The position numbers and the translations under genes are program-made. From Asterias amurensis (lineage: Eukaryota; Echinodermata; Asteroidea; Forcipulatida; Asteriidae): a stretch of DNA of 64,000 nucleotides. Shown here one piece after another: positions 20,549 to 64,000 of the stretch; position 1 is the first letter of the stretch, and each line of letters starts with the position of its first letter. The notes below the pieces were generated by a model that had not been told where the DNA came from, did not search any database, and saw nothing but the letters and a program-made list of their open reading frames with translations. The stretch is taken from NCBI RefSeq assembly GCF_032118995.1, contig NC_092669.1, forward strand, positions 9,361,501-9,425,500, read 5' to 3'.

Positions 20549-20773
20549 CATTGCAATGGCATTTTTATTGCTACTTCATAGATTTTGGTAATAATCCTCT
20601 CCCTGTATTGTTCTAATGTGTAATGTGATTGTTAATGGTTTACTCCTTTGGTACATATATTGTCATGCGTCTTTGAACAGCGCTGCCTAAAATTATAAAT
20701 TAAGTTATTATTTTTATCATCACCGGCATTCTCTCTTGCATAATAAGCTTGTAGCTTTCCAAGCTGAAGGGAT

Positions 20774-21308
20774 GATCCATCCAATAACAGCTACTGAATT
20801 CATTGATCCATCCAATAACGGCTACTGAATTCATTGATCCATCCAATAACGGCTACTGAATTCATTGATCCATCCAATAACAGCTACTGAATTCATTGAT
20901 CCATCCAATAACGGCTACTGAATTCATTGATCCATCCAATAACGGCTACTGAATTCATTGATCCATCCAATAACGGCTACTGAATTCATTGATCCATCCA
21001 ATAACGGCTACTGAATTCATTGATCCATCCAATAACAGCTACTGAATTCATTGATCCATCCAATAACGGCTACTGAATTCATTGATCCATCCAATAACGG
21101 CTACTGAATTCATTGATCCATCCAATAACGGCTACTGAATTCATTGATCCATCCAATAACAGCTACTGAATTCATTGATCCATCCAATAACAGCTACTGA
21201 ATTCATTGATCCATCCAATAACGGCTACTGAATTCATTGATCCATCCAATAACGGCTACTGAATTCATTGATCCATTCAATAACAGCTACTGAATTCATT
21301 GATCCATC
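20774..21308. repeat. 31-bp minisatellite, 17 units
   Basis: Exactly 17 units of 31 bp run from 20774 to 21300 (GATCCATCCAATAAC[A/G]GCTA then CTGAATTCATT), followed by an eight-base partial unit. Units are near identical; the main variation is one A/G site. Each unit holds an EcoRI-type GAATTC. Not a CRISPR: there are no unique spacers. Confidence 0.95.
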
Positions 21309-30492: not shown

Positions 30493-30667
30493 GGGGTGGA
30501 TTTCACAAAGGTAGTCCTAACTTAGGACTAGTCCTAAGCAATGCTAAGAGATAGGACCAGTCCTAAGTTAGGACGAGTTACTGGTCCTAACTTAGGACCA
30601 GTCCTATCTCTATTAGCATTGCCTAGGAGCAGTCCTAAGTTAGGACTACCTTTGTGAAATCCACCCC
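30493..30667. mobile_element. Foldback MITE with internal CCTAACTTAGG repeats
   Basis: GGGGTGGATTTCACAAAGGT and ACCTTTGTGAAATCCACCCC form perfect ends. Inside, TCCTAACTTAGGACTAGTCC-type words repeat in both orientations. The elements near 47760-47910 contain the same TCCTAACT/AGTTAGGA vocabulary. Confidence 0.75.
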
Positions 30668-34750: not shown

Positions 34751-37700
34751 ATGGCAGCAAAATATCCATCTCGACATACTGTTTTAGGAGTGTTGTTTGG
34801 TTTATGTTTCGCCTTAACGGTGATCACAATGGTAAGCCAGTTTCCGTGTATTCATCAGAGACCGTCTTTAGGTCACACATGTACACCCATTATAAATTTT
34901 AGTTCCAGCTAGCGTTGCTTTTACTTGCACTTGTTTTCTAAGCACAACTTTCAACCTTTTTCACGCCCACCTGGTCTTCACCTTGCCCCTGGTAGGACGT
35001 CAGTCAGTACACGGCACTGGCGTCGGGTAGAAGCTTCTTTACAATGCGAACACAAAGCTGACTAAAATTTTCTTTATTTTTTACCTGATTTGAGAAGTTG
35101 AAAATCCGTTCATATATTTTCAGCGTCCCTTATTACTACATTTTCAATGAGTTCACAGCTAACAAAAATATATCCATATAGGGTTTTTGAGGCATTGCTT
35201 ATATGGTGAGGTATCAATGTACATTGTATATTTGGTTTGCGGTAACACCATGTGTGTATCTACTCGCCAGGTAGAGTTTGTTCTTAGAGAACTATCTTGC
35301 TTAATTCTACTACCGCGAAGTAGATAATCGGGGGTTCGGGAGACTTCTCAGTTCTGAAAAGAACTGTCCTGCTTTTAACTATTACCAGGGCGGATGGCAT
35401 AGAAAATAGACTTGTACTACTACTTTAGCTTATAGAATCGTAATTAACTGTACTGCCGCGGAGTCAGTTCTGAATTGGTCTCAACGTTTCGACTAGTTGC
35501 GACCTCATGATATAATGTGCTGGCCCTCTATCTCCTGAGCTATAGCCCCATGCAGCGGTCCCCTCACTCAACTCTTCTCGGTCATGCAGGCTCTCCATCA
35601 ATATCCATACAAAGCAATCGAGATCCTCTCTTGCTATAGACCTTTATCACGATGTGGTCATCTTGATTTTACTCCATTCCAACTCATTGTAACCAAACTG
35701 AGGCTGGACGAAATAATAGTCTGGTGCCATGCGCAATGAATGTTAGCATTCATGACTGTTATTGGAAAAAGGGAAAATGGCCAAGATGGTGACAGCGTAA
35801 TAAATGTCTATGTAAAGTCTTTGTGTCATTTTGTATCAACCCTTTCGGCTCTTTTCATTTCACTAAATGTTGAAGAATACCGGTACATATATTATTTTTT
35901 AAACGCACATGGAGTGTGTGCAAAACAGAGCTGGTTTTGTGTGTTGTGGTGTTGATATGTTTGTTTTGTTTGAACAAATCCCAGCCCGGCTATTATGTGG
36001 TATTCTCACTTTTCTTGTGTCTTCTTTTTTTATCTTCCTCCTCTAAAAAATACTCCTTACAGTATGGTTTCGGCTGATACACTTGATCTTGAGTAATGGA
36101 AATATTTGCGAGTTTACAAATCGAACCCCAAATGGTTCACTCCGAATCCTCTGTGCTGTTGAGATATTTCATCACGCATAATCTGTTGTATGGTGAAGGA
36201 CACTTATAATCTGTTTCCTCGTACGTGTGCGCAAAAACCTTGCACGTGTGCGCAGAAACCTTGCACGTGTGAGCAGAAACCTCGCACGTGTGAGCAAAAA
36301 CCTCGCACGGTGAGCAAAACCTCGCACGTGTGAGTAAAACCTCGCACGTGTGAGCAAAACCTTGTACGTGTGTCTGAGTAAAACCTCGTACGTGTGAGCA
36401 AAAACCTTGTATCGTGTGAGCAAAAACCTTGTATCGTGTGAGCAAAAACCTCGTATCGTGTGAGGGAAACCTCGTACGTATGAGCAAAAAACCTTGTACG
36501 TTTGGGCAAAACCTCGTATCGTGTGAGCAGAACCTTGCACGTGTGAGTAAAACCTCGTACGTGTATAAGCAAACACCTCGTACGTGTGGGCAAAAACCTC
36601 GCACGTGTGAGCAGAAACCTCGTACGTGTGAGCAAAACCTCGCACGCGTGAGCAAAACCTTGCACGTGTGAGTAAAACCTCGTACGTGTATAAGCAAAAA
36701 CCTCGTACGTGTGGGCAAAAACCTCGTACGTGTGGGCGTAGGTCTAAGTATTTGCTAAACTTGTATAGGCCACAATAGGGCCACACGACGCCATTTTTTA
36801 AAAGTGATGCGTGCTGTGCTCTACAGGAGTGTTTGAAAGTGACTTGCCCTTAGAAGTTGTCTCCTGAACGAAATGTACATAATAGTGGTGAAAACTTTCA
36901 GCCTAAAGAGAAAATATACTGCACTTTTTATACATGTTTTTCCTACAAACTCTTCACTATTGGCCTAGCCACAACTTACTCCACATTCCTGTCCCTTTAC
37001 TAGTTGTTGAAAGACAGAGTTGAGTTTGTTAAAACTCCTGCCATCCGTGCTGTCCCGCTTCAGTTGAAACAATCACCTTCTAATGTAAGTGTGATTGAGA
37101 GAAAGAACACAACCGGCCCATCCTCCATGAGAATCACCAGCCACACCAAGACTAACGTCCAACTGATATCACCTAGAGGACACATTCAAGTCGGAGATAT
37201 CATCAAGTATCGGATTCAGACCAGAGATTCCGAAGGAAGGGACCGGGTTATAAGCGGGGATTTCTGGTTTGCCACTCTAAACTCAAAGAATCCGCTAGCT
37301 AGTACAGCTGGTTATGTTGCTGACTACAATAACGGTACATATGAAGTCACATTGCTGGCAGCATGGGCTGGTCAAGCTAAATTCAAACTCATTCTTGTGC
37401 ATGCCAGTGAGGCTGTTGACTGCTTCAGAAATGTGATCTGGCCTGCAAAGGAAAGAGTACAGTGGAATGGATACTTCAACCATAAAGGCAAGAAAGCAGA
37501 AAGGACAACTTGCTTTTTGAGGAGTAGCGGGCCATGGACTGGACTGTGTCAATATCCAGCACACCATGCACTTGGGAAGACAATTCTTGTTTGCCAGAAA
37601 CCGAAAGGTTTGTCCTGTGATGATTTCACATCTTACAATACCGACTGGGATAAATGCAACCAAAAGCTGGCCGAGTTGACAAAAGGCGTAGAGTATCTAT

Positions 37701-55399: not shown

Positions 55400-55789
55400 T
55401 TAAAGGAACACTTTGCCTTGGATCGGTCGAGTTGGTCTTTGAAAAGCGTTTGTAACCGTTTGCTATAAGATGCACGTGGTTAGAAAGATGTTTAAAAGGT
55501 ATAATACAATCATCCACACACATTTGCCTCGAAATTGCGTGGTTTTCCTTTTACTTTGCGAACTAACACGGTCGGCCATTAATGGGAGTCAAAAATTTGA
55601 CTCCCATAAATGGCCGGCCGTGTTTGTCGACGAGGTAAAAAGAAAACCACGCAATTTGGAATGATACTTGTATGGATCATTATGTTCTACTTTTAAAATA
55701 TCTTTCTAACCATATGCATTCTATAACAAACTGTTACATATGCTTTTCAAATACCAACTCGACCGATCCAAGGCAACGTGTTCCTTTAA
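55400..55789. mobile_element. MITE, family A, copy 4, just upstream of the olfactomedin gene
   Basis: TTAA-AGGAACACTTTGCCTTGG to CCAAGGCAACGTGTTCCT-TTAA. It ends 97 bp before the start codon at 55887, in the presumed promoter or 5'UTR. Confidence 0.85.
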
Positions 55790-55886: not shown

Positions 55887-58800
55887 ATGGCGGTGATAAA
55901 CATGTTCTGGACTAAGAGTGTTCTGCTGATGGCTTTCCTGGCATGCCATCTTCACTTTGCGGACGCTCAGGTAATCATTTGTATGAATCCAATGGTATAG
56001 ACATAGACTGTTGTTTTGTTGGTTGGAAACTAAGACACTGCTCTAAAGACACAGCCCTGTTTAGTAAAACCATGGTAAAACAGTACTGCTCTAGAATTGC
56101 AAAAGTCGTGGGTTAAAATCCAACCCAAGTAATTAATATTTGCACTTTACATTTTCAACAGAACTATAAGTATATATGCAGTGTGGAATAATAACAAGGA
56201 GTAAACAATGAATGGGGAGACAGGGGCGGGGTCAAGGGAAGGGGCTGGTTTGACCACACGACCTGCTTATGATACATTACGCCTGAAAGACTACCACAAC
56301 GTCGAAACGTCAGGTAATAAAGCTATGATTGTGTTTGCATTTATACCACCACAGGTCCTTTTGGTTGGTAAGTTTGCAAAAGCTAATGTTGTTTATCTGA
56401 CAATGGATAACACTTCAATAAATCAGTTAATTCTTTCTATTTAGACGACATTGCCCACGGCTTCATCTGACGTGAATGACTTCCAACTGACCCAGGGTCA
56501 AGCCAAGGGCGGAACCTGCCAATGCTCGATCAAAACACCATTCCCCGTGGTTTGTACGGACTACCAAATAAATAACAACTCCGAGCAACTACGACAGATT
56601 CAACATGAGGTAAAGCTATAGACTTGATTTCAGGTCTTAGATCGCGGTTATTCTTCTGCATCCCAGCCACGAAAAAGGCCCCCACATTATTCGTTATCAC
56701 GCGTCCTAACTTGCGACACAAGAGGGCGCTGTTTGTAACGGCTATCAGACCGACTAAAAGCCACGATCAATTTAGAATATAATACTGGTCTTTGATTATA
56801 ATGGTATCGGGTGTAGCTGTATGTGAGATTGTAAATTTGGTTGGTTTGATTACGGGTTTCCGAGTGTACTCATTGTTAAAGGCAGTGGACACTATTGGTA
56901 ATTACTCAAAATAATTATTATCATAACAACTTTCTTGATTACGGGTAATGGGGAGAGGTTTATAGCATAAAACATTGTGTAAATTCCTTTCTTTCTAAAA
57001 TTGGTCGGAAGAATTCTAATCTGTGTACTTTTTGTAAAATGGTAGAAGAGACACTAGTCCACTTCTTTTGTAATTGTTAGGTGTCTCTGTATTTTTGGCG
57101 TCAGATAAAACACTGGTTGACTAATACACTGAACATTGACATTAATTGTGACAACACGACCAAGCTGTTTGGTGTCCTTAATAGAAAGTGGTCCGCTCTC
57201 AATTTAATTCTCATTCTTTGCCGTTTTCATATTTATCGGATGAAGATGAACGACAGAAAGCCCTCATTTGTTCTTATCAAAAAGGAAATAAATCATTATT
57301 TTGTAATGGAAAAATGATCTTTGTTAAGAATAACAACTTAGATAAGTTCACTACCAAATGGGAGCCTTTTGTATTGCTCTGTACCAACTAAATGCCTCGC
57401 ATAATCATCAAACTTCCTGTTTTTGCAATTTGCCATTTCTCTCTTAGTATCGTTCTATAAGTAGTTGGTTTTACCAGTAGTTTGTGTAGCTTTGTACATT
57501 GAAGAAACTTGAATAAATTTCCCCCTACAGGGAAAAAATAAATAAATAAACAAACAAATAAAACATTGTGAGAAACGCTCCCTCTGAAGTAATGTTGTTT
57601 TCGAGAAAGGAGTAATTTTCCACGAATTTTATTTCGAGACCTCAAGTTTAGAATTTGAGGTCTCGAAATCAACCATCTAAAAGCACACAACTTCGTGTGA
57701 CAAGGGTACTTTTTTCTTTCATAGTTATCTCGCAACTCCGACGACCAATCGAGCTCAAATTTTCACAGGTTTGTTATTTTATGCATATGTTGAGATACAC
57801 CAAGTGAGAAGACTGGTCTTTGACTATTATCAAAAATGTCCACTGCCTTTAAAGTGTAAGACAAAAATCAGTCTTTGTGCCCTCTCAGTGTACTCATATA
57901 GTGATAGTGTGTATGTAATAGAGCTTTCTCAGTTCACTTATAGACTTTTTAATTAGCTCTGCCCAGCTACAACTGGTCTTTAACAATTTCCAAACGTGTC
58001 CAGTACCTTTAAACAAAAAGTACCGAAGTTTGATCGGCTGCCAGCTTCTGCCAGACAGACAATCTTCCAAGAATGTGAAAAAATGGGACATTTAACCTTT
58101 AGTTTACCCTTTCAAAACCTGCCTCGTTGTGTTCAAAGTTCTGCATGGACAAGCCCCACAGTATCGTATGTAAACTTATCTCCACTAAGCACAGCAGCCG
58201 TGCCCTACGGTCTGCTGGATCTCACTTGCTGGTAGAGCCAAGGTCTTGAACAATTCGTTACGGTATGGTGGCCCTGAAGGGACATCGCATATCTCAAACG
58301 TGTGCGCATACGTATGCAATGTCGTGAAACAATTCGCAAATATGTGCGCACACGAATGCAATGTCGTGAAACAATTCGCGAATATGTGCGCACACGTATG
58401 CAATGTCGTGAAACAATTCGCAAATATGTGCGCACACGTATACAATGTCGTGAAACAATTCGCGAATATGTGCGCACACGTATGCAATGTCGTGAAACAA
58501 TTCGCGAATATGTGCGTCTGCGAATATTATTTGCGATGTCGTGAATTTTATTGCATACCATGTTGCATACCTTTGAATAAAATGTCTAATGATCTGGGGG
58601 GTTTCTTTCCAACAGTGAGATAAGCGGTAGTCATTGCAGCAGTAGTCTTTGTTGTGAGGCAAGCGAGGCGTGTGGTCGTCCTTGACCTGGTGCCAAGTTC
58701 CTGGATATACACATGCTTTACAGAGGGAGCCTGCTGTAGCGCCACAGTACTCCCTAGATCGGTAACAAATTATCCACAACTATGACATCATCCTAATGGT

Positions 58801-61800
58801 ATGCAACATGGTATGCAATAAAATTCACGACATTGCAAAACAAATCGCACTCGTGTGCGCACATATTCACGATTTGGTTCACGAAATTGCATACGTGTGC
58901 GCACATATTCACGACTTGGTCCACGAGATTGCATACGTGTGCGCACATATTCGCGATTTGTTTCACGAGATTGCATACGTGTGCGCACATATTTGCGATT
59001 TGTTTCACGACATTGCATACGTGTGCGCACATATTCGCGAATTGTTTCACGACATTGCATACGTGTGCGCACATATTCGCGAATTGTTTCACGATATTGT
59101 ATACGTGTGCGCATATGTTCGCGATTTGTTTCACGACATTGCATACGTGTGCGCACACGTTTGCGTTATGCGATGTCCCTTCGGGGCCACCATATTACGG
59201 AGACCGTGTTTTCGCCAAAGCTGCTTCTGAATAAGCTCCCTGTCTCACTTCGCATAACAAGTTCACTCAACAACTTCAAGTGGGAACTACAAATGACTTT
59301 CATTGGGTATAAATTAAATTATGTTTATTCTTGATTTTCTTTTGTATACTGATTTCATTTTGTGTAGTTGCTTTGATCGGGTTTCTGGAGAAGTGCGCGT
59401 TATAAATCCATATTATTATTATTAATAATAAAGATTGACTTTCAGAACAATCATTTCGGCGAATTTTTAAGAATTTAAGAAAAATCTACTGGAACAAAAT
59501 AAAAGTGAGAGATAGTCCAGGGATGACAGCCTTTTCAAGAGAATCGTTATTTGTTAAAAAGTCCCACACTAAGCTTTCGTAAAAGAAACCAACACTCCGT
59601 TTGTGGCAACTTTGTAATCAATGCTCTTTTTGTTTTTCTTAGATAAACAACTTGACACTTGATATTACTCAATTGTACGAGAAGGCAACCTTGCAATCAG
59701 AGCTCATCATTACCTTCCAGGACAACCTTGCCGAAGCTACTGAGAAATTCAACTTAATGGAGGGTGGGCAATTGCTGATCACCCGGGCTGAGATTGAGGG
59801 AGTACGCCAGAATGTTCGCGGCATGGCCTCTGCGCTGTACACATTACAACAGTGGCAAGGGATTCAGACAGATGACGAACAAGTGCAGAGAATTCGGGCC
59901 ATTATGACAGACGTAAATATCAAAGAGCAAAAAAGAAGTAGAAGATTGCACTTAAAAATAAAAAGGTTTAAACAAATTTTGTGAAGTTCAACACATTTCT
60001 AAAACCGGGTAGAACCAAGGTTCAGCAGGATACTGGATTTAAAACACAAGGTTCCGGTCCGGAATGGGACCATGGTTTCACTTTCGAACGGGTCATGCTG
60101 ACGGGTTGATAGGTCTCCCCCCCCCCGTACTAAATTCAGAGTCAACTGTCCCAGATCTAGGTTCAAGATGGAATTTTGGAGGTGCAACACTGGCCAGAAA
60201 ATCCACAAAATCCGAGATTTTGCTTCAAAATTACCCGATAAACGTGTCTGGTCCTCTTCGTACTCATCTCTAAGCTAATTCCGGAAAAATATTCAGATAC
60301 TCGGATATCAGTTTGTTATGATTTTATTATAGGTTGTATCGGCCATTATCAGCAACAGCTTTTTCATTTTTCGTTGAAACGAAATACAAATTAAGCATCA
60401 GTCTAAAAGCTCACTACCGGATCAGAATCAACCCGGATACTTGATCCTATGGGAATTGACCCATTACATCTTTAGAGTAATTACCAAAGGATATACCCTC
60501 CCTTTAAAATCAACAACTTTTGTTGTTGAAATTTTCCGATGAAAACTATAATAATATTTGTGTTGGTAATAGGGGTCTATAGAACGCTAGGTGGCAGCAG
60601 ACTTACTAGGTAAATATCCATTGTTTACGTAGTTCTGAGCACGCGCACATTACCGAGATCAATGGAATTTACCTGGTAAGTCTGCTGCCATGAAGCGTCC
60701 CAAAAGTCCCATATTGGGTGCGTTCGTTTGGCTTCCCTGGGTCGACCCCGGTGTGTGGCGTTTTCTTTTTCCAGGACGAACGTGTGCAGATGATTACCCA
60801 CGTTCGTCCTAGAAAAAAAAACCCACCACACACCGGGGTCGACCCAGGGAAGCGAAACGAACGCACCCATTGTTGCACTTTTCTATAGGTTTCATCCATC
60901 AGCACTGTTGTCGATGCTATGATGGAGTTTGAAAACAGCGACGACTTAGACGGCATGCAGCGTCGAATCACTGAGTTATCTGGTCAGCTAAGGACTTGCA
61001 ACGCGGGGCAGCAGACAGGTGGTGGTGCACAGTACTCCCCTCCTACCGTAGGAACAGCAACTGTGAGTCCAGGCACCAGACATGGCTCAGTCGGTGGTCA
61101 AGCACTGCCGGAAAGATGGCCAGAGATGGCAAAACAAAGTAAATAATTGACTACACATCATGTAATTTATATAAAACAAACAACTGATGACATTCGATGA
61201 GCGCTAACACTTCGGTGGAAGTTATCAAACGGAAAGCACTTTGCATCAAAGGCAGAACGGAAACAATCGTTCGGGCCTAATAACAACAACAACAACAACA
61301 ACAAAACAGACGAATGGTTTGTTTAAAAATACGCAGGTAAACTAAACTCAACGTTTCATGCTATGGCGCATTTTATGTGGATAGAAACTGACCAATATGT
61401 TTGATTGCCTGGGCCCAATTTCATAAAGCCTGTAAGCACACATATTTGCTTAGCATATAACTTCTTCCTTATATAAACAAGATTACCAACCAAATTTAAA
61501 TTCTTTTGCATATTGCTTGTTACTAGCATTCAGCTGTTGTTTGCTTATCCTGAAAATCACGTGGAAATTTGGTTGGTAATCCTATTTTTATGAGGCAGTG
61601 GACAATATTGGTAATTACTAAAAATAATTATTAGCATAAAACCTTTCTTGATAACGAGTAATGGGGAGAGGTTGATAATATAAAACATTGTGAGAAACGG
61701 CTCCCTCTGAAGTAATGTAATTTTCGAGAAAGAATTAATTTTATGCATATTATGTTGAGATATACTGTGAAGGTTAGCAAATGTTTGTGCTTACATACTT

Positions 61801-64000
61801 TATGAAATGGGGCACTGGTAAAGTTATTGAACTTAAATCAATTGTGACCCCTTGTAGTTTTGGCGAGTTTCGATATTATTAAACGTCTGGAGCGAAGACT
61901 AATGAGGCCGTAAAAAGTGTGTATCAATTTGTCTCCTCTCTAAAGATAGCTGTGGAAGACTAGTCTCCGTTTCAGAGCCTTACACTGTACGAGGAAGTCT
62001 GAATCAATATGGAGTGTGGATGAGGGACCCGGAGGTGAATCCTGACTATGTGTATTATCATAAGTAAGTATGGAAGTAACACACATAAATTGAGTAGGAT
62101 TTGAAACTTCATGGTGGAAATACGATATGGAAAGGTTTGCGGTAACACCATGTAATGAGTTATCTCTAATGATTTGGGGTGGTTCTGAAAAGAACCTTTG
62201 GTTTCCAGTCGACGTTTCGATCAGTATGCTCTGGAGATAGAAAATGATCAGAGCATACTGATCGCAACGTCGAGTTGAAACCACCGTTCTTTTCAGAACA
62301 ACCCCATAGAGATAGACATTACATAGTCTTACCGTAGGACTAAACCTTTCTATAACACATCATGTAACATTGACTAAGGGGATACCGGACTATTGGTATT
62401 AGAGGACGATCAGTTATTATAAAATGTATACCAGTACCAATCCTCTAGAGAACTCCTCTGGAATACAATCAAAGACAAGTGTCTTTTTGATTTCCAGAAC
62501 CCTGACTAAAAAAGTGGCAACCGAATCCAATGAACTTAATACAGTTTGGTTTGGTGTTTATTTGAAAACCCAGAAATATAGGTACCTTATCGTATTAAAC
62601 AACCTTGCTGACCTGTTTAGTATTGAATGAGACCGAAAACCGGTTTTTAATAAAGGAATAAAAAGGTAGCTCTTAAACGGCCGTTAAACCGGTAGGGTCG
62701 TTGCCGTGTGACAAAGGCCCGAGCCGAAGGCGAGGGCGTTTATCGCTCGGCCACGACCCTGCAAGGTTTTAAAAGGCAGTTTAAGAACGAGTCACTACTC
62801 TATTATTCCCATCCATAGATGCCTTTTTGGTTAAAAGGCGTAATCAACTAAGAAAACTCATGTAAAACTCATCTGTTTTCCGACGTCCTTGAGCTCTGTA
62901 CATGTGCTGCGTTTTTATGACTGAGACAGTTTTCGGATATGCTTCGTGCGCGTAGTAGTCTTGGTGCATGCAAGACGTTTCTCGTTTTCCTTTCACACAC
63001 AGCGCGCGGCCAAGACCAGCGCGTATAGTATCCGAAAACAACCGGTCATAAACAGAGCTCCAGCTGGTCATTATCAACCGTTTAAACACCCCCACGTGTT
63101 GGCTCCACCAATAGGAGTAGCGAAAATGTCTGAGGTATTTATGAATAAACTTTTAAAGTGTCGAGTTTTAACAAGGTTTGGTATGGTTGTTGATGTTTTC
63201 ACCGAGACAAAAATTGTCAAAAAATAAGATCTTCGTGTTTTTAAGCAGCTTTGATTACATCATTATAGGACTCAAATATTAATAATGTGGGAGTGTCAGA
63301 ACATTATCCGTGATACGGGACGAAGGCGCAACTAAACAAATAACAAACATCTAATTGTGCGGTACACATTAATGATTATTTTTACAGTGCAATAAAAATG
63401 TATCCGAATACTTCCCTGTTTCAACAGTTACACATCCTCGAGTCAAACTGTGAAGTTTGGAGGCAGTATGAGTGTTGGTGCTTTCCAGCGGTCTAAAACC
63501 CATTGGATTAAAGGAGAAACTCTCCAACACATCAAGGAGGCGATCGTCTACAACAGCTCCCTCTATGCATACTCTGAGGAACGAGTGGCATACACGACAA
63601 CGAGCTATGATTATCGTGGGCGCCTGAGGACAGAAACAAACTATCGTACTGACAAGAAACTGTCCAAGATCACAGGGGGCTCTTCACCGGATTCGAACAT
63701 GACTATCGACTCAGACGGCGTGGTGAGTACGCGGGACATTGCGTCAGATACACCCCTTGATCGGATCGCTTACTCCGGTCCAAGTGACGTTCCAAAGATG
63801 GACCTGAGCGTAGATGAATCTGGACTGTGGCTGATATACAGTAATGAACTGGAGATGCTCGTCGTTAGTAAAGTGGATGAAGAAACGCTGGAGTTTGAGC
63901 GTACAGTTGAGAGTTCTTACCCGAAGAATAGCGTTGGGAACTGCTTCATCATCTGCAGGAAGGTCTACTGTCTGAACGGGGCCATGAGGTACGACTCTAG
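55887..64000 (+). CDS. Secreted olfactomedin-domain protein (amassin/noelin-like), six exons, runs off the window
   Basis: Exons join in phase: 55887-55970 (signal peptide, VLLMAFLACHLHFADAQ), 56445-56609 (Cys-rich, GGTCQCSIKTPFPVVCTDY), 59643-59912 (coiled coil, LTLDITQLYEKATLQSELII, also EIEGVRQNVRGMASALYTLQ), 60889-61138 (coil end, then a Gly/Ser/Pro hinge), 61946-62063 (NSCGRLVSVSEPYTVRGSLN, YGVWMRDPE) and 63428 onward (QRSKTHWIKGETLQHIKEAI, AYSGPSDVPKMDLSVDESGL, LWLIYSNELEMLVVSKVDEE). CGxLxxVSxP...GxWMxDP and DExGLWxIY are OLF-domain hallmarks of a calcium-stabilised beta-propeller. Sea-urchin amassins, with coiled coil plus OLF and disulfide bonds, clot coelomocytes; this protein has the same order, but could be another olfactomedin. 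The last part of the domain lies past 64000. Introns hold a foldback element, LINE pieces and MITEs. Confidence 0.9.
56876..57852. mobile_element. MITE, family B, split by a LINE insertion
   Basis: TTAA-AGGCAGTGGACACTATTGG begins and AAATGTCCACTGCCT-TTAA ends it. The continuous MITE sequence is interrupted at ATAAAACATTGTG by the LINE at 56980-57557. Confidence 0.85.
56980..57557 (+). mobile_element. 5'-truncated LINE 3' end with a 13-bp target duplication
   Basis: The coding part reads NSNLCTFCKMVEETLVHFFC and then LYFWRQIKHWLTNTLNIDI, the zinc-knuckle/HxxxxC-type tail after the reverse transcriptase (EETLxHLFxxC..xxFW). It continues FHIYRMKMNDRKPSFVLIKK to a stop at 57389-57391, then a 3'UTR and an AAATAAATAAATAAAC tail. 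ATAAAACATTGTG flanks it at 56967-56979 and 57558-57570. One stop lies after HFFCNC. Young enough to keep a perfect duplication. Confidence 0.9.
58012..58257 (+). mobile_element. CR1/L2-like LINE 3' ORF2 fragment, left part
   Basis: FDRLPASARQTIFQE and, in another frame, VVFKVLHGQAPQYRM match the LHWLPxxxRIxFK...LxGxAPxYL end of CR1-clade reverse transcriptases. Interrupted by the foldback element at 58264; it resumes at 59201. Confidence 0.7.
58264..59194. mobile_element. Foldback transposon with 42-bp satellite arms and 6-bp target duplication
   Basis: TATGGTGGCCCTGAAGGGAC starts the element and GTCCCTTCGGGGCCACCATA ends it. TTACGG flanks both sides (58258-58263 and 59195-59200). The left arm (to about 58571) has five 42-bp units, the right arm (from 58798) seven to eight in reverse orientation. 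Each unit holds TTCGCGAA and TGTGCGCACA palindromes. The arms close with GAATTTTATTGCATACCATG and its complement around a 226-bp unique spacer. The layout resembles the TU foldback elements known from sea urchins. No transposase; all open frames across it come from the 42-bp (14-codon) periodicity. Confidence 0.92.
59201..59435 (+). mobile_element. CR1/L2-like LINE 3' end, right part with (ATT)n tail
   Basis: TVFSPKLLLNKLPVSLRITS, SLNNFKWELQ is the WNxLPxxLRxxxSxxxFKxxLK end of CR1-clade elements. The 3'UTR ends GTGCGCGTTATAAATCCATA and ATT repeats. It joins the left part at TTACGG. Confidence 0.75.
60576..60709. mobile_element. MITE, family E
   Basis: GCTAGGTGGCAGCAGACTTA / CTAGGTAAATATCCATTG and CAATGGAATTTACCTGGTAA / GTCTGCTGCCATGAAGC are inverted arms. 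Olfactomedin intron 3. Confidence 0.75.
60713..60871. mobile_element. MITE, family D, short copy next to an exon
   Basis: TTGGGTGCGTTCGTTTGGCT / TCCCTGGGTCGACCCCGG on the left is inverted on the right (CCGGGGTCGACCCAGGGAAG / CGAAACGAACGCACCCA). Its inner arms AGGACGAACGTG and CACGTTCGTCCT also pair. It ends 17 bp before the acceptor of olfactomedin exon 4 (60889). Confidence 0.85.
61279..61303. repeat. (AAC)n microsatellite
   Basis: Eight AAC units in a row. Olfactomedin intron 4. Confidence 0.85.
61409..61818. mobile_element. MITE, family C, with a nested family B fragment
   Basis: GGGCCCAATTTCATAAAGCC on the left, and GTGCTTACATACTTTATGAAA, TGGGGCAC on the right. A family B piece (about 61590-61769: GGCAGTGGACAATATTGG ... 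AACATTGTGAGAAACGGCTC) sits in its right half. Confidence 0.75.
62131..62350. mobile_element. MITE, family F (AAAGGTTTGCGGTAACACC)
   Basis: AAAGGTTTGCGGTAACACCA / TGTAATGAGTTATCTCTA and TAGAGATAGACATTACATAG / TCTTACCGTAGGACTAAACC are loosely inverted; the inner AGTCGACGTTTCGATCAGTA / TGATCGCAACGTCGAGTT pair is stronger. Olfactomedin intron 5. Confidence 0.75.
62880..63225. repeat. Degenerate inverted repeat shared with 23440-23700
   Basis: GACAGTTTTCGGATATGCTT and CGTATAGTATCCGAAAACAA are inverted around CGCGCGGCCAAGACC. ACCAATAGGAGTAGCGAAAA and TGTCTGAGGTATTTATGAAT match 23480-23510 in reverse (TTCATAAATTCCTTCAGACA, TTCCTATTGGCGG). Olfactomedin intron 5. Confidence 0.5.

Follow-up and report, generated by a model that had tools for sequence, protein, structure and literature searches.

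The analyzed stretch of Asterias amurensis DNA (64,000 nucleotides of contig NC_092669.1, positions 9,361,501 to 9,425,500 of the forward strand; hereafter, the window) contains, at positions 58264-59194, a complete foldback element of 931 bp, with an olfactomedin-like domain downstream (approximately 63729-63977, plus strand). The component parts of the element are listed in Table 1. The termini read TATGG..CCATA, i.e. the element has TA..TA ends, the tips are inverted repeats across 28 bp with one difference, and the inverted arms extend over 253 nt at 93% identity. The initial annotation, made from the letters of the window, had described a foldback element with inverted termini and satellite-like arms, flanked by a 6-bp TTACGG duplication, and both claims hold. 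Its count of 42-bp units, five on the left and seven to eight on the right, agrees with the Tandem Repeats Finder values of 5.1 and 8.0, respectively. By contrast, the spacer between the closing repeats measures 220 bp rather than 226 bp, and is common to the whole family, not unique to this locus. When the tip pattern was searched with at most 3 mismatches, the only two matches in the window were the two ends of the element, with none in 100 shuffles. As single-stranded DNA, the element is predicted to fold into one long hairpin (fold z-score of -39 against 20 shuffles); the Rfam scan of positions 57900-59600 yielded no match reaching the gathering threshold.

Table 1 Parts of the foldback element in the window and open integrase-type frames elsewhere in the genome (C10, a contig of the assembly).
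Feature	Coordinates	Strand	Remark
Target duplication TTACGG, left copy	58258..58263	.	
Left tip, 28 bp, TATGG...	58264..58291	+	family tip letters TATGGTGGCCC..
Left arm, five 42-bp units and junction unit	58292..58529	+	6 bp below commonest family form
Left closing inverted repeat, 45 nt	58530..58574	+	96% with 58795-58839
Central spacer, 220 bp	58575..58794	+	common to family
Right closing inverted repeat	58795..58839	-	
Right arm, eight 42-bp units including junction unit	58840..59166	-	one unit above commonest family form
Right tip, 28 bp	59167..59194	-	
Target duplication TTACGG, right copy	59195..59200	.	
Open IS3/IS481-like frame	C10:6691186-6692085		locus L095
Open IS3/IS481-like frame	C10:6719749-6720648		
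Open IS3/IS481-like frame	C10:9701890-9702786		

The element belongs to a large family. In the genome assembly searched (491,506,623 bases in 23 contigs, denoted C1, C2 and so on; the published assembly was built from PacBio HiFi and Hi-C data, PMC10625585), a 24-base tip with at most 2 mismatches was found at 894 places (435 forward and 459 reverse), compared to 0 for the reversed control, so that the many copies with the same ends that the annotation had called for do exist. The left arm used as a query returned 467 candidates, of which the best 40 were scored, and the spacer returned 273 candidate places, the best 40 of which were 99-100% identical; near-identical copies are spread over many chromosomes. 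We read 90 loci from the left-arm, tip and spacer searches, to which three long ones were added later. This is a non-random sample: the left-arm and spacer searches return the best matches, and the 30 loci from the tip search correspond to the exact tips met first along C1. By hand count, these 30 tips make up 18 element loci, 16 with two tips and 2 with one tip in the stretch read; 15 of the 16 two-tipped loci have exact 6-bp duplications and the remaining one has a duplication with one change. Among the 100 listed matches of the 42-bp unit (of 1547), none lies in a long satellite array, and an exact 26-base tip pattern had no match in prokaryote genome contigs. Thus, long inverted arms, internal tandem repeats in variable number, and dispersed copies with target duplications, which together define a foldback element structurally, are all present, and the existence of a genuine low-divergence, high-copy foldback family in Asterias amurensis is confirmed.

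Across 67 distinct paired elements, an exact 6-bp duplication was observed in 59, in accord with the prediction that other sites would show duplications of this length, and extension to 7 bp was observed in none (0/67). Among the 8 elements lacking an exact duplication, four are one base off (L026, L056, L092 and L093; loci are designated by L and a number), in two (L003 and L025) the repeated hexamer is displaced by 2 and 3 bases, and the remaining two are neighboring elements in L081. The duplicated hexamers show a preference for S-W-W-W-W-S, with C or G in 74% of the outer positions and A or T in 73-82% at the inner ones, compared to 58% A/T in the flanks. The flank of the window element is itself a dispersed repeat, and a query in which both flanks were joined through a single TTACGG produced 42 rows from the best 40 of 74 candidates. 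An uninterrupted match across the junction, at 73-86% identity, accounts for 36 of these rows; another 2 come from the two halves of the window locus itself, and the last 4 from two copies split near the junction. These empty sites are paralogous repeats rather than alleles, and are known from match coordinates, not from letters.

At L081 (positions 300-2095), the two elements lie 13 bp apart in the layout CGATTA [element] TTAAACCTAATCG [element] GTTTTA. When the 13 bases are turned round, to CGATTA-G-GTTTAA, each element gains a duplication, which in one of the two carries a single change; the simplest account of the layout would be an inversion via recombination between the two neighboring copies. 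At L050 (1501-2885), the right part of an element is repeated together with its C-rich right flank, the right ends at 2309 and 2885 each being followed by CCCACCCCCC.

For the analysis of divergence and arm variation, 61 of the 67 elements align well with the spacer, and six were set aside, namely, three class A copies with internal deletions (L010, L021 and L031) and the three long class B copies (both classes are described below). The 24 copies with modal arms, 895 bp each, differ from their consensus by 0.57% on average (0.49% when CpG is disregarded); 80 of the variants are private and 13 are shared. Divergence of the spacer depended on the sample, being 0.94% for 14 C1 copies taken in contig order, 0.76% for 18 copies from the left-arm search and 0.33% for 29 copies from the spacer search; because best matches were fetched, the divergence estimates lean low. 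The family, with its hundreds of copies, is young.

The commonest arms, 317 bp on the left and 358 bp on the right, are found in 26 of the 61 copies. Arm lengths fall on 23 modulo 42 in 56/61 left arms and on 22 modulo 42 in 55/61 right arms, so length varies mostly by whole units, as had been expected of copies with differing unit counts. When units are typed by letter (near matches, given in lower case, are raised here), the modal strings are DFAEAG for the left arm and HIABKJC for the right arm, and the whole-unit variants include HIABBKJC, HIAABKJC, HIBKJC, DFAEAEAG, DFAEFAEG and HIABIABKJC. The first and last units are retained in most typable copies, and the order of units is conserved. 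The window copy differs from the modal form by one additional unit in the right arm and by a left arm that is 6 bp shorter. The initial annotation had taken the unequal unit counts of the two arms as a sign of change after insertion; however, the modal form is already unequal, and therefore, the arm asymmetry is inherited. Unit number changes on top of this inherited asymmetry, at or after transposition.

The same tips are shared by other classes of elements. The tips of a second class (class B, as distinct from class A, to which the window element is assigned) begin with TATGGTGGCCCTGAAGGGACATCGCACATCGCAAATA and were found at 99 places with at most 2 mismatches, a few of which are perhaps mutated class A tips; at 3 mismatches, there are 337 places in all, and class A left tips fit as well. 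Tandem repeats, mostly at spacings of 42, 30 and 12 bp, also form the class B arms, and the units of the two classes are identical at 26 of 42 positions, a value equaled by 1 of 5000 shuffles. The long relatives sharing the tips are L091 (3887 bp), L092 (4636 bp) and L093 (2358 bp). L091 and L092 have a common interior of several kb, the main pieces of which are 81-90% alike, with no clear codon-position bias among the mismatches, as judged by eye. The interior of L091 yielded 174 matches from the best 40 of 4895 candidates, the longer ones at 75-95%. Class B looks older than class A. In a third class, recognized by ..GGGACATTGAACATATAT, the pairs are short, spanning 78-287 bp by place (both tips were read in two pairs and one tip in the others). 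Thus, the tips are fixed across classes, and the units are class-specific but alike in both arms of one class; the replacement of units between classes may be read as concerted turnover. Many of the listed matches to the class B interior cluster at C18 4.77-6.60 Mb, C4 5.39-5.96 Mb and C15 7.0-9.9 Mb, and, at C13:48914-51884, a piece of this interior with 69-bp spacing has grown into a long tandem array.

A candidate motif common to tips and units is CRATGTC, with 12 occurrences within the 931 bp of the element vs. 11 in the remaining 63 kb of the window. It is found in both tips, five left units, three of the eight right units and both closing repeats, and, in the window copy as well as in L091-L093, occupies positions 18 (reverse orientation) and 54 (forward orientation), counted from the end. 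The longest word common to the units of classes A and B is ATGTCG, and the reversed tip and the class B unit have TGCGATGTC in common.

The ends and the target duplications bear on the kind of transposase involved. IS3EU elements are described as invariably having TA..TA ends and, in most cases, 6-bp duplications (PMC10045372, available text), and the present family has both the TATGG..CCATA termini and the 6-bp length. The longest copies, L091-L093, were considered as autonomous elements, and this candidate was dropped given the absence of a transposase by Pfam. The top IS3 candidate obtained with the NF033516 model, C11:19566404 (1 of 78 rows examined), was likewise rejected, as its frame looks like that of a retrotransposon-type integrase.

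HTH_21 is a domain of IS3-type transposases. Scanning the genome with it gave three matches over the cut-off, all on C10, and 300 amino acids from one of these contain, besides HTH_21, the integrase core rva_4 (3.9e-32); the same segment scored 1.2e-9 with the IS481 model and 5.7e-6 with the IS3 model, both well below the cut-offs. The rva_4 domain itself has 10 matches in the genome. Four of these, on C10, are stop-free, with frames of 286-426 amino acids; three, of 423-426 amino acids, are 97-100% alike in the portion that was compared, and the fourth, C10:9604712, has two stops in the longer match. Two of the frames, approximately 28 kb apart and in opposite orientation, are identical across 300 amino acids. 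A class B tip is present on C10 at 20.9 Mb, and a broken match, C2:13222074, has no exact tip within 10 kb, all exact tips on C2 being listed. In tblastn against available sequences, a piece of the transposase had no match below E 1.5.

The explanation that we favor, with a probability of roughly two thirds (0.68), is that of a non-autonomous, cut-and-paste foldback family that would be moved by an IS3EU-type transposase acting in trans, with the arms serving as tandem binding sites. The observations on which it builds are the copies, the 6-bp S-WWWW-S duplications, the empty paralogous sites, the low divergence and the whole-unit change. Under this scenario, an IS3EU-type DDE transposase would make a 6-bp staggered cut; CRATGTC, found in the tip and, in opposite orientation, in many arm units, would turn the arms into arrays of binding sites; and the spacing of units would be preserved, with unequal exchange or slippage homogenizing the otherwise drifting remainder of the unit. 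We infer the assignment to IS3EU because of the ends and the duplication, together with the presence in the genome of an enzyme of a suitable kind. A more specific version, in which an IS3EU foldback lineage carries arms that are arrays of transposase sites, the tips, period and core stay fixed and both arms jointly replace the rest, and recombination between neighboring copies inverts the DNA in between, is offered tentatively and may well not hold in full.

Several observations weigh against this explanation. No transposase is tied to the tips of the family: none above chance was detected in L091, L092 or L093 (Pfam, open reading frames and six frames), and no unusual tip lies closer than approximately 235 kb to the C10 frames, ordinary class A and class B tips not being covered by this search. 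The C10 protein is closer to the IS481 model than to the IS3 model, and rva_4 is indicative of an integrase core in general rather than of IS3EU specifically. The putative role of CRATGTC as a binding motif is deduced from the letters; the exact motif is absent from five of the eight right units of the window copy, and, for class A, no 6-letter word is common to the unit and the reversed tip. Regarding unit-to-unit point conversion, a same-phase match to another unit was seen for 15 of the 53 variants in the arms, compared to 10.8 expected with transitions weighted, a small excess. It is conceivable that the arms are passive and their tandem units persist via slippage, with no part in transposase binding, a view compatible with the transposition part of the favored explanation. 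The variation in whole-unit number, the 16 of 42 positions that differ between the class units and the five right units lacking the exact motif fit this view, and we regard it as a substantial minority possibility; against it, both classes preserve the period of 42 bp, the ATGTCG core and the placement of the first inner motif at 54, and transposase sites have been described inside the tandem repeats of Galileo (PMC3688188, available text).

Other sources of the transposition activity are less probable. Polintons have 6-bp target duplications and ends starting with AG. Given that IS3EU elements are not alone in making 6-bp duplications and that no transposase is linked to the tips, the family could derive from another integrase element with such duplications, for example, a Polinton, or from an undescribed superfamily, but the TA ends differ from those of Polintons, and we consider this derivation unlikely. 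Still less probable is a foldback of the Mutator/Foldback kind, such as Tetris or Tm1, or of the P kind, such as Galileo, moved by the respective transposase. The architecture is alike, with long arms that contain tandem repeats in unequal counts (PMC4079207, PMC3573991, PMC3169594, in the parts available), but the duplications are 8-10 bp long in Tetris and Tm1 and 7 bp long in Galileo, compared to 6 bp here. Finally, assembly is difficult where repeats are tandem or inverted, so that a local rearrangement or an assembly artefact of a satellite might be suspected; hundreds of tips, the preponderance of exact duplications, empty sites and near-identical copies on many chromosomes led us to reject this, and its probability is negligible.

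Comparison with known systems shows how the family stands apart. Galileo (Drosophila, P superfamily) has long inverted arms and, in some subfamilies, tandem repeats unequal between the arms (PMC3573991, available text), whereas its 7-bp duplication, repeats of approximately 210 bp in the F group and P-type transposase contrast with the 6 bp and 42 bp found here. Tetris of D. virilis is also non-autonomous, with tandem-repeat arms, tips common with a miniature element and an autonomous partner not found (PMC4079207, available text), but its units of approximately 220 bp are also found in kilobase-size satellite-like arrays, unlike the 42-bp unit at its 100 listed places. Tm1 of Meloidogyne (Mutator/Foldback) has composite inverted repeats with fixed end motifs, variable tandem units and a mean arm identity of 93% (PMC3169594, available text), and differs in its 9-bp duplications, units of 13-15 bp and transposase-bearing members. 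The IS3EU/GingerRoot superfamily agrees in ends and duplications, but no foldback member is named in the available part of PMC10045372. A sea urchin foldback is mentioned in the accessible text of PMC4079207. In the open-licence literature, judged by titles and the openings of abstracts, we found no description of a starfish foldback or of an IS3EU foldback. The family is unusual in combining a 6-bp duplication, TA ends and 42-bp arms.

Elsewhere in the window, there is a hairpin with 194-nt arms, 82% complementary and separated by 2 nt (55400-55789), a short element resembling miniature inverted-repeat transposable elements, whose inverted ends of 59 nt (93%) enclose 57 nt (30493-30667), and two tandem arrays, one with a 31-bp unit in 17.3 copies at 98% (20773-21308) and the other with a 21-bp unit in 24.6 copies at 82% (36217-36734).

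Sea urchin TU elements are echinoderm foldbacks with arms made of tandem repeats. To our knowledge, change in foldback repeat arms has mostly been inferred from few or old copies; Tetris, for example, is known from three complete copies (PMC4079207, available text). The present family, with hundreds of copies, those measured being about 1% or less from the consensus on average, in a HiFi assembly, makes gains and losses of units readable like a genotype, and its sister class gives a view of unit turnover over the longer term. Should the link to IS3EU hold, a further transposase lineage would have given rise to the foldback form, and the open transposase frames of this genome could be used for probing arm binding. 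The family thus records the growth, shrinkage and divergence of foldback repeat arms.

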